A stretch of 64,000 bases of DNA from Bacteroides mediterraneensis (lineage in GTDB: Bacteria > Bacteroidota > Bacteroidia > Bacteroidales > Bacteroidaceae): positions 2,257,935 through 2,321,934 of the forward strand of contig NZ_LT635783.1 in the NCBI RefSeq assembly GCF_900128455.1, given 5' to 3'. The notes beneath the pieces were generated by a model. The model searched no databases and was not told the DNA's origin. It worked only from the letters and a program-made list of their open reading frames with translations. Both the position numbers and the translations under genes were made by a program. Positions within the stretch are counted from its first letter, which is position 1. Every line of letters starts with the position of its first letter. Shown here piece by piece: positions 25,980 through 38,536 of the stretch.

Positions 25980-28028
25980 CTAATTATTTTCTTTTATCTC
26001 TGTATTCTTCATATCTTGTGAATGCTTTATTTTAAGCATATCTATAAATCCCTGATTCTTCCCTCTCCATCTGCGCACAACATAACTATTAAAATCGAAC
26101 TTTCCTAAATCTAAATTATCGGCATGGTCTGATATTATGATTTGAGGCAGAAAACCATAATTCTCTTCTATTGAATTTATAACATTTATTATTTGTACAA
26201 ATAGATTAGTTACTGCATTAAGATCCTCATCAGCTGATTTGTTCTCCAACTTCTTAAGTTTCTTAGCATCAAACTTTTCTTCATTAACATCTACTGTTGC
26301 AGGGAAATAAACTTGACTAGGTTGGTCTAAAAATAGTATAGAAGGAACTAACGCCTTATCCCCTAAAGAGGCGAAATACTTGAGAATTGACAAAAATAAG
26401 CAAATATGAGAATACAGCCAATTGGCTCCACTTCCCATAGATCTAAGATATACTTTTGTTTGATTATCTTTCAGATGATATAATTCAAAAGTATGTATGT
26501 CAAAATAAAGGTTAATGGGCTGATATGATGCTTCAAAATCTAGTTTACGACCAATCTCATTCATCGAATGATTAATGAAGGCTTCAGCCTCTTCCAATTT
26601 ATGTTCAACATTATATCGCTTTTGCAATACTTTTTCAATCTCTTCTATTCTTTTCTTAATATCCTTGAATTTTTCTTCGTCAAAACTAATGGATTTATCT
26701 CTAGACCATTCTAATTCATTCTCAATCTGGAGCCTCACTTTCAAAGACTGTTCTTCTAATGACCTGTCGTTTTCAAGACTTTTATTAATCTCATTAATTT
26801 TTATGATTTCGTTATTAATAGTCCGAATTTGTTGATTAATTTCCAGCAATTCTTTTTCATACTCCACCTTCTTAGGTAGGAAAGAATCTATTCTCATTGG
26901 AGATTTCCTTAGTTCGGAATTCAACCAATTAATTGCTTCTGTTAATTTATTTGCATCTGTTATAGTCGCACTATTTATATTGTGGCAGAAAGGACATATA
27001 GAGCTGCTTTTTATAGCCTCCTTAATGGGATTATATCTGTCAATAGCTTCGGCATAAGATTTTGCATACTCAATGGAAGATATCACTTTCTCTAACTTAA
27101 GTGTAATCTCTCTTTTTTGAGCAAGTAATAAATTCTTCTGCTTAATTAGTTCTGTATATTGATACTTGTATTGCTCGGAGTTTTCATTTACTATAATGGT
27201 AGATTCTCTTAGCTTATCAAGGTAGGTCTGAGCGGCATTAAGCATATGTATACTATCTATCCCTGGAAATAATTCATTACCGCTTATGGTATAATATTCT
27301 TCTCTTAAAGTATCTAGATACGAACACCGATCTTTCTTATTAGATTCAAAACGATTTTGCTCGTTCTGTATTTTCTCTAGTTTTATTTTACATTCCTCTA
27401 ATTCCCGAGATAAGATATAATACTGCTGATCGACAAGTCCTGCAAATATTTTAAACTCATCTATAACACGTTCTCGTTTTTCTTTTTCATCGAATCTATA
27501 GAATAAAGAATGTTTATTAGCAACCAAGTTTTGATGTTGTAACATAAATGAAACCATATTTCGAAAAGAGGGATGTCCTTTTTTAACAGCTTTTCTATTT
27601 ATACTATTATCAGCCTCATCCATATTTGATATTTCAATTCCGAAAAAATGTCCCAATTCTTCTTTGAAAGCATTTATATCAATATAATACTCATCACCGA
27701 AGTAAGAACTATTCAAATCATCTATATCCAAATCTTGAGGTTCAATTTTGAAAAACAATTTTCTAGTCCTTTCGGCTTGCTCACGAGCAATTACTAACTG
27801 AGTGTCGTTTTTATATAATACGACAAAGTAAAGGTGAGCATTCTCTGTAATAACACCAGCTGGGATAGTATTATCAGCACTTCCTGTACAGTAATCAAAT
27901 AACTCTATTATAGCACTTTTTCCTGTAGAAGATCTACCAGTTACAATGTTTAGACCTTCATGCATATCAATATAATGACAATTATCATATTGATCAACAA
28001 TACCCATATATTTTATATAACTTTTCAT
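25980..28028 (-). CDS. DUF3732 Rad50-like ABC ATPase (ABC-three-component ATPase)
   Basis: This 682-residue protein has a Walker A motif GRSSTGKSA (residues 31-39), long coiled coils at about 200-340 and 380-490 that flank a CPFC zinc-hook-like motif (345-348), then an ABC signature-like [10 protein letters not shown] (529-538) and a Walker B-like [10 protein letters not shown] (563-572) with Gln where the catalytic Glu usually is. This layout is Rad50/SMC-like and fits the DUF3732 family. Such ATPases accompany a middle component and an effector, as here upstream. The start overlaps the middle-component gene by 4 bp. It is probably the DNA- or end-sensing part of a defence system. Confidence 0.85.
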
Positions 28029-28486
28029 AGCGCTTTTATTCCAAATGCATAGTAAGTGTTAATAACATTCTTTGTGAAAATATTATGCAACTGTGAAGAA
28101 AGATTTATAATTTTCTTCAAGCGGGAATCTGTCAACATATTGACATCATTAATCACAGTTACCGTAAGATTTTTATCTATCTCAATATATTTACAATCAA
28201 TAGCATATTGTAAACACTTATTTGTTTGTTCTTTATAGTAATAAAAACGGTCCTCAAATCCAGCCATTATATCTTTGTCTTTTGTTATTCGACTCATATT
28301 GGAAGCGGTAGTAATTCGCTGAATTTTTCCTACGAACTCATTATTTAGAACTAAAGGAAACACGAAATAAGCCAATAATATATTCTTGTCCGTTGGTTTT
28401 AAGTTTTTATAAAAAGAAACCAGCAAAGGGGTTAGAATAAATGTATTGTTTTGCAGAATTGATATGTTTTCTATGAACTTACTCAT
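28025..28486 (-). CDS. ABC-three-component middle component
   Basis: This 153-residue protein has no catalytic motif. Its opening ([20 protein letters not shown]) and size fit the small middle-component family that connects the ATPase and effector of ABC-three-component systems, and its neighbours are exactly those partners. It overlaps the effector gene by 8 bp and the ATPase gene by 4 bp, so translation of all three is coupled. It is mostly helical with a possible winged-helix-like end. The family call rests on pattern and context. Confidence 0.7.
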
Positions 28487-29609
28487 TTGCTCTATCTTTT
28501 AACAACCATATAAATTTGTCATTTTCATCAGCTATCATATGTAGCATACCATTATGGAAATATAAATCCACATTATTATAGGTGTGAAACGTTATATCAT
28601 TACTTCCCGTCATGTCATCATAAAAGTCTTGTGATTTAGTAATTCGTTCACTATCATTGTAGTTCCTTGATGCTTTTCTATATTTTGCAGCATAACTTTT
28701 TATCAAGTTCTCTTCATATTGTAATAGCGATTTCTTCTTTACTTCAGACTTTTCCAACTCTTGCTTAATCATTTTTGCTGTATGCACATAATCATCAATA
28801 GCATCAGGAATAACATCTTCATATTTTATATCCTTGATTTTCTCAACAAAAGCATAACCATCATAGTCATTTTTGCTAATATCTGCTAACTTTAGTTTAG
28901 CAGGAAACACTGCAGTATTTTCTACTAATGTTTTTGTTACCTCTTCTGATTCTCTTGTGAAATCTTCGTACGTAATTCTCCAGTTATGACTAACAATGTC
29001 AGGATTAAGTATATAACCAAACATATGATTAATATATTTCCCTTTCTGTATATCGGGGATGTTCTTTCCGTATTCTTCTTGAAGATATTTATGATATTGA
29101 CTTCCATTCATGCTTATACTATCAATGTATAACATCTTTGCGATTTGTGATAGTCTTGTCGCATTTTTAGCATCAAAAATGATATTCATACATGTTGCTA
29201 AATCCTTATTTTTTCTTTTTTGTAAGTCAAAATTCTTTTTGATATTTCTAAGAACATCCATTCTTTCTGTCATCGTTTTACTATTCCAATTCAACCAGGC
29301 AGAATCTATAGAAACTTTTTGAGTTGTTAGCAATACAAGAGAACTAAACATGTCAAGAGGAAAGTCTTCTCTCATCCAATTATAAATACTCTTCCATACA
29401 TTCTTATCGGAATCTGTTAATGCTTTTTTATAAAATTTTGATTCAATCTGTTTGCTATCAAACAGACTTCCTAATACAGAAACATCACCATATGTTTCTA
29501 TATATATAGATTGTCCTTTTCGCATCTTGAAACATCGTTCTAATGCAATAAGAAATTGAAATAGAATACCTTTAATAGATGATGTTGAATCAAATTTCAG
29601 TTTTGGCAT
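28479..29609 (-). CDS. ABC-three-component effector with nuclease-like N-terminus
   Basis: The N-terminal part of this 376-residue protein looks like a restriction-endonuclease fold of the Cap4/DUF4297 type: IKGILFQFLIALERCF (about residues 12-27), then IYIETYGDV (35-43) and KQIESKFY (53-60). Glu/Asp near 38-42 and Glu56-x-Lys58 could form the PD-(D/E)xK active site. The rest (about 200-376) is unassigned and probably binds the middle component. It would be the DNA- or RNA-cutting arm of the three-gene module. It is 5 bp downstream of the 634-residue ATPase. Confidence 0.65.
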   Translation of the reverse strand: MPKLKFDSTSSIKGILFQFLIALERCFKMRKGQSIYIETYGDVSVLGSLFDSKQIESKFYKKALTDSDKNVWKSIYNWMREDFPLDMFSSLVLLTTQKVSIDSAWLNWNSKTMTERMDVLRNIKKNFDLQKRKNKDLATCMNIIFDAKNATRLSQIAKMLYIDSISMNGSQYHKYLQEEYGKNIPDIQKGKYINHMFGYILNPDIVSHNWRITYEDFTRESEEVTKTLVENTAVFPAKLKLADISKNDYDGYAFVEKIKDIKYEDVIPDAIDDYVHTAKMIKQELEKSEVKKKSLLQYEENLIKSYAAKYRKASRNYNDSERITKSQDFYDDMTGSNDITFHTYNNVDLYFHNGMLHMIADENDKFIWLLKDRANE

Positions 29610-38330: not shown

Positions 38331-38332
38331 AA

Positions 38333-38536
38333 TTATTGTTTAGTAGTTACAATCAAGCTTCTTACATCGACATCCAGTTTTTCTGCAATTTGCATCAACA
38401 TCTCCAAAGACGGTTGCATTTTGTTTGAACACCATTTAGACACAGTAGATGGATCTTTTCCTAACTGTTCAGCAAGCCATTTTCCTGTTTTCTTTTGTTC
38501 AACCAAAACAATTTTTATCCTATTTATATCTTTCAT
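38333..38536 (-). CDS. XRE-family regulator, C-protein-like
   Basis: This 67-residue protein is a single XRE helix-turn-helix domain (TGKWLAEQLGKDPSTVSKWC, then SLEMLMQIAEKLDVDVRSLI). The frame is open upstream to 38629, but those residues form an unrelated hydrophobic stretch and the promoter box lies within it; ATG 38536 is used. Small proteins like this at the head of restriction-modification operons delay expression of the restriction part. A palindrome overlaps its -7 box. Confidence 0.85.
   Translation of the reverse strand: MKDINRIKIVLVEQKKTGKWLAEQLGKDPSTVSKWCSNKMQPSLEMLMQIAEKLDVDVRSLIVTTKQ

Follow-up and report, generated by a model that had tools for sequence, protein, structure and literature searches.

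A restriction-like operon of Bacteroides mediterraneensis with a Lamassu system as its probable exchangeable back-up

Is the seven-gene operon at positions 25980-38536 of the window one defence system, two systems working in layers, or two strangers that happen to be neighbours? The window is the whole stretch of DNA analysed here, 64,000 nucleotides of contig NZ_LT635783.1 of Bacteroides mediterraneensis, and the operon consists of seven uninterrupted open reading frames (ORFs), all on the minus strand. The original prediction had given its gene order, its gaps and the domain make-up of all seven genes; all ORFs are intact, order and gaps are as described, and Pfam confirms the domains. It had not recognised the combination as one named system, which is wrong for genes 5 to 7, as these match the Lamassu families by PADLOC and by structure entries. 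Judging from sequence comparison, the operon is probably a two-layered restriction-like island of horizontal origin, likely co-transcribed, in which Lamassu is an exchangeable back-up. The genes are as follows.

Gene 1, 38333..38536, minus strand: small XRE/HTH_3 regulator (Pfam HTH_3 1.7e-10)
Gene 2 (HEL), 35061..38330, minus strand: PLD-family nuclease fused to a SNF2-type helicase, 1089 amino acids (aa)
Gene 3 (MTase), 31522..35049, minus strand: Eco57I/N6-adenine methylase; TaqI-like specificity domain; additional domain at the N-terminus
Gene 4 (ATPase), 29615..31519, minus strand: RecF/SMC-type ABC head (residues 1-410) and a C-terminal region (Pfam SMC_N)
Gene 5 (LmuA), 28479..29609, minus strand: effector with a nuclease-like N-terminus (E38..GDV, QIESK) and an ABC-three-component (ABC-3C) C-terminal domain
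Gene 6 (LmuC), 28025..28486, minus strand: middle component MC3 (Pfam MC3 1.3e-27; PADLOC LmuC 4.3e-12)
Gene 7 (LmuB), 25980..28028, minus strand: DUF3732 Rad50/SMC-like ATPase (Pfam DUF3732 5.5e-49; PADLOC LmuB 1.2e-103)

From gene 1 to gene 7 the consecutive gaps are +2, +11, +2, +5, -8 and -4 bp, values which assume that the regulator starts at the ATG at 38536 (the longest ORF starts at 38629). This anatomy is compatible with two layered systems and with the likely co-expression that had been proposed.

Genes 5 to 7 are, by their family assignments, a complete Lamassu system (LmuA, LmuC, LmuB), because they match the corresponding PADLOC families and Lamassu-type structure entries. LmuA matches its PADLOC family at 4.2e-36 and the domain CTD7 at 7.8e-6 (26.5 bits, just below the Pfam cut-off of 27.6). 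A profile of seven LmuA relatives matches the chains 9hqu_C (5.6e-33) and 9nxx_A (3.5e-25), which are both named 'ABC-three component systems C-terminal domain-containing protein', and LmuB matches the DUF3732 chains of entries 9hqu (9hqu_A, 1.1e-37) and 9ny5. We infer that the solved entries pairing an ABC-3C effector with a DUF3732 chain are Lamassu. LmuB has a CPFC motif in the place of the hook and FLDQP in the place of Walker B. All three components, the order A-C-B, the nuclease and ATPase motifs and CPFC are thus as in Lamassu; the difference is that the copy in the window is tightly appended to a restriction-like operon. Part of the text of PMC12904381 names DNA ends or hairpin structures as what Lamassu presumably senses; part of PMC10586767 also treats its sensing and regards LmuB as presumably defective in ATP hydrolysis.

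HEL shows Helicase_C (3.4e-18), SNF2 (4e-12) and PLDc_2 (1e-9) in Pfam and matches 'HKD+Snf2' in PADLOC (1.3e-42). Its motifs are HAK (residues 132-134) and GSSN (154), which together make up a PLD-type site, and GLGKT, DEAH and QRIGR. MTase matches Eco57I (2.8e-36) and TaqI_C (5e-9) in Pfam and REase_MTase_IIG in PADLOC (1.4e-89), and carries CDPAIGSG and NPPY. The model of gene 4 has a RecF/SMC-type ABC head without a long coiled-coil insert, with fold matches over residues 1-412. Twenty PADLOC families match gene 4 at 0.01, the best being mad3 (1.1e-11, over part only). In the C-terminal region, R429, E433 and H494 are invariant in the alignment. Among the 28 ATPases in the alignment, 2 match HEPN and 2 match DUF4145 (best E 0.005 and 0.051); the HEPN motif Rx4-6H would call for an R at a distance of four to six residues ahead of H494, which the window's sequence lacks (LLMNPLSH). 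Gene 1 had been called C-protein-like; it amounts to a small HTH protein with a putative regulatory role. Its BLAST relatives stand directly upstream of the helicase in six loci (L063, L127, L128, L112, L029, L003), and none were found by BLAST in L006, L007, L060 and L062.

Where does the restriction-like part end? On the sequence comparisons, gene 4 is still part of it and not of Lamassu, and the border is between genes 4 and 5, since the RecF-like ATPase recurs with the helicase and methylase genes. Relatives were drawn from genome, plasmid and contig collections. At E 1e-10, the ATPase has relatives in 16 of 393 genomes at the order level and in 13 of 399 at the family level, and both sets include the genome of the window. 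HEL, MTase and ATPase stand together in one stretch in 23 loci besides the window, mostly without Lamassu; L003 is a plasmid-collection locus, L006 and L007 were taken from genome_contigs, the one scan of which gave two loci, and L039 and L043 share one genome. L006 and L058 are one contig and were counted once, and L059 and L112, on different contigs, are possibly two ends of one G527 locus, were left unjoined and stand outside the 23. The ATPase mostly, not always, adjoins the methylase, with other genes intervening in L034 and L043. ATPase relatives also occur with no such helicase or methylase nearby (L064, L066-L069, L005), and the contig ends shortly upstream of the ATPase relative in L016, L036, L041 and L059. 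A helicase branch of about 41% identity has the methylase, with the ATPase not detected (L116, L117, L119). The helicase search found 9 of 61 genomes of the window genus at 1e-100 and, at 1e-250, 4 of 158 in the genus of G715 and 2 of 180 in that of G708.

How often is this core followed by Lamassu? L007, L037 and L042 stop inside the ATPase or shortly behind it, and the downstream count leaves them out (23 to 20). Of the 21 core loci, window included, that show 3 kb or more downstream, 3 have Lamassu behind the ATPase and the other 18 have no LmuB. LmuB occurs in 8 genomes of 393 and in 9 of 399, again including the window's own. Seventeen LmuB loci were examined: 3 have the core linked to them, 11 lack it and the remaining 3 break off too near upstream to judge, so that 11 of the 14 with at least 2.7 kb visible upstream are without the core. 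No core was seen beside LmuB in L070, L087, L088 and L089-L099, where L090, L093 and L096 show less than 0.8 kb upstream of the first Lamassu gene and L089 is a fragment; L070 is the only one examined of 32 LmuB-matching plasmid records. Three of the five full-length LmuBs of at least 57% identity (window, L006, L063, L087, L088) are linked. In viral contigs, short-pattern scans for gene 7 and gene 4 found relatives of neither.

Both linked relatives have the gene order of the window. L006, from a metagenome-assembled genome of Mediterranea massiliensis (SUXZ01000012.1, contig C7 of G715), yielded no XRE relative. L063 (contig C9 of G742) is from the window's own genus, and its ATPase and LmuA are broken. 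In this decayed copy (L063, 9332-13750), a transposase gene on the opposite strand (DUF772/DDE_Tnp_1) interrupts the ATPase, and LmuA is present as two ORFs.

What stands behind the ATPase elsewhere? In 13 loci the helicase is at least 70% identical, and in ten of them what follows the ATPase is visible on the same contig. Two of the ten carry Lamassu; L127 has a set with NA37, L029 a run with AlbA_2, L062 a Schlafen-like protein with HATPase, and in L065 the ATPase itself is rearranged. Outside the ten, L059 has, like L062, a Schlafen-like/458 aa cargo (the Pfam run was on L062). In L061, L128 and L003 the place holds HNH and then a PDC-M11-type protein, and in L060 a KAP/PifA-like protein; the more distant L030 has Fic. 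These classes were assigned by Pfam and PADLOC for the named proteins only, some slots being unscanned. The place after the ATPase is, as the gene contents have it, a cargo slot, and Lamassu is one of several modules found there; in some loci no known type of cargo was recognised in it.

The HNH_5 and PDC-M11A-like cargo lies at 11005-14367 in L061, 13883-17248 in L003 and 10805-12929 in L128; a GNAT domain and an ASCH protein were found in L061 and L003. The ATPase of L065 (8484-10195) is in two parts on opposite strands beside an intact helicase and methylase, which suggests inversion or shuffling; the inverted repeats listed for L065 include no obvious inversion site.

Have core and cargo descended together? 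The helicases of the window, L063, L127, L062 and L112 are mutually 91-98% identical. That of the window is 95% identical to L063, which has Lamassu, and 95% to L127, which has none; that of L006 is 98% identical to L007, which breaks off inside the ATPase, and 95% to L061, again without Lamassu. The helicase tree, as computed from these sequences, conflicts with the distribution of the cargo. At the DNA level, the window is homologous to L127 or L063 without interruption from the regulator until about mid-methylase, and beyond that the homology is patchy. Compared with L006 in bins of 150 bases, the ATPase gene of the window is 48-69% identical up to residue 300, 80% at 300-350 and then 87-96%, and the high identity continues through LmuB (84.8% over 4.7 kb from window position 30671). 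The proteins agree: residues 1-400 of the ATPase are 53% identical, residues 400-634 91%, and LmuA, LmuC and LmuB 81, 86 and 84%. Because the identity jumps in the middle of the ATPase and stays high to LmuB, the 3' end of the ATPase gene and Lamassu appear to have moved together as one tract. Lamassu is nevertheless not tied to one ATPase C-terminus, because that of L063 is of another type, 24% identical to the window (158 columns) and 35-37% to L061, L062 and L128, which have other cargo. An association between the type of ATPase C-terminus and the type of cargo was looked for and is unsupported by L063, L061, L128 and L062.

The operon has a GC content of 33.6%, compared with 49.1% and 51.5% in its flanks, and it is part of a larger insertion.

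Whole insertion, 20302..38972, no strand: operon and insertion sequence (IS) elements between the genes for MgtC and a HAD hydrolase
Mobile-element remnant, 20892..25746, plus strand: IS66 genes split by IS21 (Pfam/NCBIfam)

The distance between the MgtC and HAD genes is 18.7 kb in the window and 2,442 (G742), 1,354 (G671) and 1,352 bp (G624) in other genomes; in G258, the last of the four same-genus genomes compared, they lie on two contigs. The inserted IS21 (istA 22981-24543, istB 24573-25328) splits the IS66 transposase gene, and the IS66 end is 0.23 kb downstream of LmuB. In G742, the copy of the operon sits on another contig than the MgtC-HAD site. The best reading of composition and site is that the whole operon is a low-GC island that was acquired horizontally.

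The biochemistry, the co-transcription and the order of action that we infer for the two layers would be as follows. In the first layer (genes 1 to 4), the adenine methylase would mark self DNA at the site for which its specificity domain selects. Sensing or clamping of DNA is probably the task of the RecF-like ABC ATPase. Methylase and ATPase would engage DNA that is unmarked, and the SNF2 motor, with its fused PLD nuclease, would then move along and cut it. In the second layer (genes 5 to 7), the Rad50-like LmuB would, together with LmuC, sense DNA ends or structures and release the LmuA nuclease, which would kill or arrest the cell if the first layer fails or if its cuts expose ends. The core's own cuts could, in our opinion, feed Lamassu.

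Some observations weigh against an exchangeable back-up in a co-transcribed island. Only three loci are linked, and one of them (L063) is decayed. The slot is not always filled, because in L031 and L032 the next gene after the ATPase is on the other strand. A promoter scan gave about as many hits as shuffled sequences (58 found, 58.1 expected) and is uninformative. Moreover, the three linked LmuBs cluster in the LmuB tree with a support of 0.96, and this clade could be a specialised, coupled subtype. In the LmuC tree, the same split is supported at 0.59 only, and the LmuB of L063 is equally near (62%) to the window and to the unlinked L087.

The LmuB clade also speaks for an alternative that we regard as unlikely, namely one integrated machine, in which the core ATPase, chiefly its C-terminal part, restrains Lamassu and frees it when restriction is inhibited or overwhelmed. 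The 5 bp gap between ATPase and LmuA would suit it, as would the joint conservation of ATPase residues 400-634 with LmuA, LmuC and LmuB between the window and L006 next to the far less similar residues 1-400. It also has a precedent in PrrC-PrrI, where EcoprrI, according to part of the text of PMC3710099, likewise controls PrrC. However, a single recombination tract accounts for the block shared with L006 without any coupling, L087 and L088, whose Lamassu is closely related, lack such an ATPase in their vicinity, and the Lamassu of L063 behind an unlike ATPase C-terminus speaks against a strict machine. There is a small chance that Lamassu is licensed by restriction, with the C-terminal half of the ATPase as an adaptor that silences LmuABC until the restriction layer is blocked or exposes ends. 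If so, the slot would be a general port that wires unrelated killing modules to one restriction sensor.

A chance neighbourhood, i.e., two independent and functionally unrelated systems adjacent in a defence island, is very unlikely. The original prediction had asked whether the two halves usually occur apart; core and Lamassu are indeed mostly separate, with 18 of 21 core loci lacking LmuB and 11 of 14 LmuB loci lacking the core, yet three loci have them paired at a constant place, with the same order and strand and with tight gaps where intact. Core and cargo have diverged to differing extents, the G742 copy is at a site other than the HAD-MgtC site of the window, and other defence-type genes occupy the same place.

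The last alternative concerns the N-terminus of gene 3. The MTase model has fold matches to CamA, BrxX, MmeI, DrdV and type ISP enzymes over residues 178-1108. The model of residues 1-177 shows the helix-strand order of a PD-(D/E)XK nuclease, but E-V-S replaces E-x-K, so these residues look like a nuclease domain without the E-x-K lysine. In a motif survey of 17 methylases, the lysine is missing from that of the window and also from the eight aligned ones that go with a helicase of at least 70% identity (E-V-S/T/N/A), and it is kept in the distant L032 and L043. Such an N-terminus would leave cutting to the PLD domain of HEL. That the methylase is itself a type IIG/IIL restriction enzyme with the helicase as an accessory is scarcely credible, since the lysine is absent in the window and its nearer relatives yet present in L032 and L043, even though type IIG is its best PADLOC family and its N-terminal domain has, in the model, the right helix and strand order and corresponds in place to what precedes residue 160 in MmeI and residue 148 in DrdV (the alignment of the model begins at residues 178 and 176).

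Does the restriction-like part correspond to a known system? The core of DISARM is drmA, drmB and drmC. HEL matches DrmD (1.2e-32) and gene 3 matches DrmMI (5.8e-32), each over part, and HEL also matches one DrmA model over its helicase part; neither DrmB nor DrmC is among the PADLOC matches listed for the seven genes. The NCBIfam score of HEL for DrmD is 137.6 bits, far under the cut-off of 610, and no NCBIfam model reaches its cut-off in any of the seven proteins. BREX-related type 2 systems, as described in part of PMC12839542, likewise have an HKD nuclease fused N-terminally to a Swi2/Snf2 helicase and an N6-methylase. They differ in that the ATPase of the window is of the RecF/SMC type, and DUF499 and DUF3780 have no Pfam match in the seven genes at E 0.01. 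The CxC ABC-ATPase systems/Pbe (part of PMC10853773) share the HKD-SF2 helicase, the ABC ATPase and, in some, a methylase; no CxC hook is present in the gene 4 sequence, and DndE has no Pfam match among the seven genes. Hma (part of PMC8565338) also unites helicase, methylase and ATPase in one operon, and HEL matches the HmaA model of PADLOC (4.3e-28). HmaB is described there as an m5C methylase, whereas gene 3 is of the N6/Eco57I type with NPPY; HmaB is not among the best 25 of 43 PADLOC matches for gene 3, and the 20 PADLOC families that match gene 4 at 0.01 do not include HmaC.

That restriction-like loci can carry back-up nucleases is well established, as parts of PMC12839542 and PMC3710099 make clear, and those in BREX and BREX-related loci include Schlafen, HNH, PIN and HEPN (PMC12839542, in part). 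PrrC-EcoprrI and the BREX effectors resemble the window in having a suicide-type back-up within a restriction locus, and the difference is that the window holds a complete three-gene sensing system and not a single RNase. 'Lamassu' is absent from the main text of PMC12839542, and the literature searched, mostly titles and the beginnings of abstracts, gave no account of a Lamassu joined to a restriction operon, which does not establish its absence from print. The parts are already known, whereas their pairing was not found described in that literature; Lamassu, mostly alone in the loci examined, is here carried as cargo. Loci with near-identical helicases and differing cargo where visible let the question of stacked or wired layers be tested by comparison of modules.

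A second insertion place lies at the helicase-methylase junction. It holds a Fic pair in L007 (5111-6584), KilA-N in L035 (13988-14806), a Schlafen-like protein in L003 (7075-8469) and L060 (4066-5460), and HATPase_c_4 in L029.

A terminator scan of the operon was no better than shuffled sequences (8 compared with 7.0). Upstream of the operon, at 38537-38972, several GGAAACGTA-like motifs in both orientations were read by eye; they are possibly operator sites or a repetitive element.

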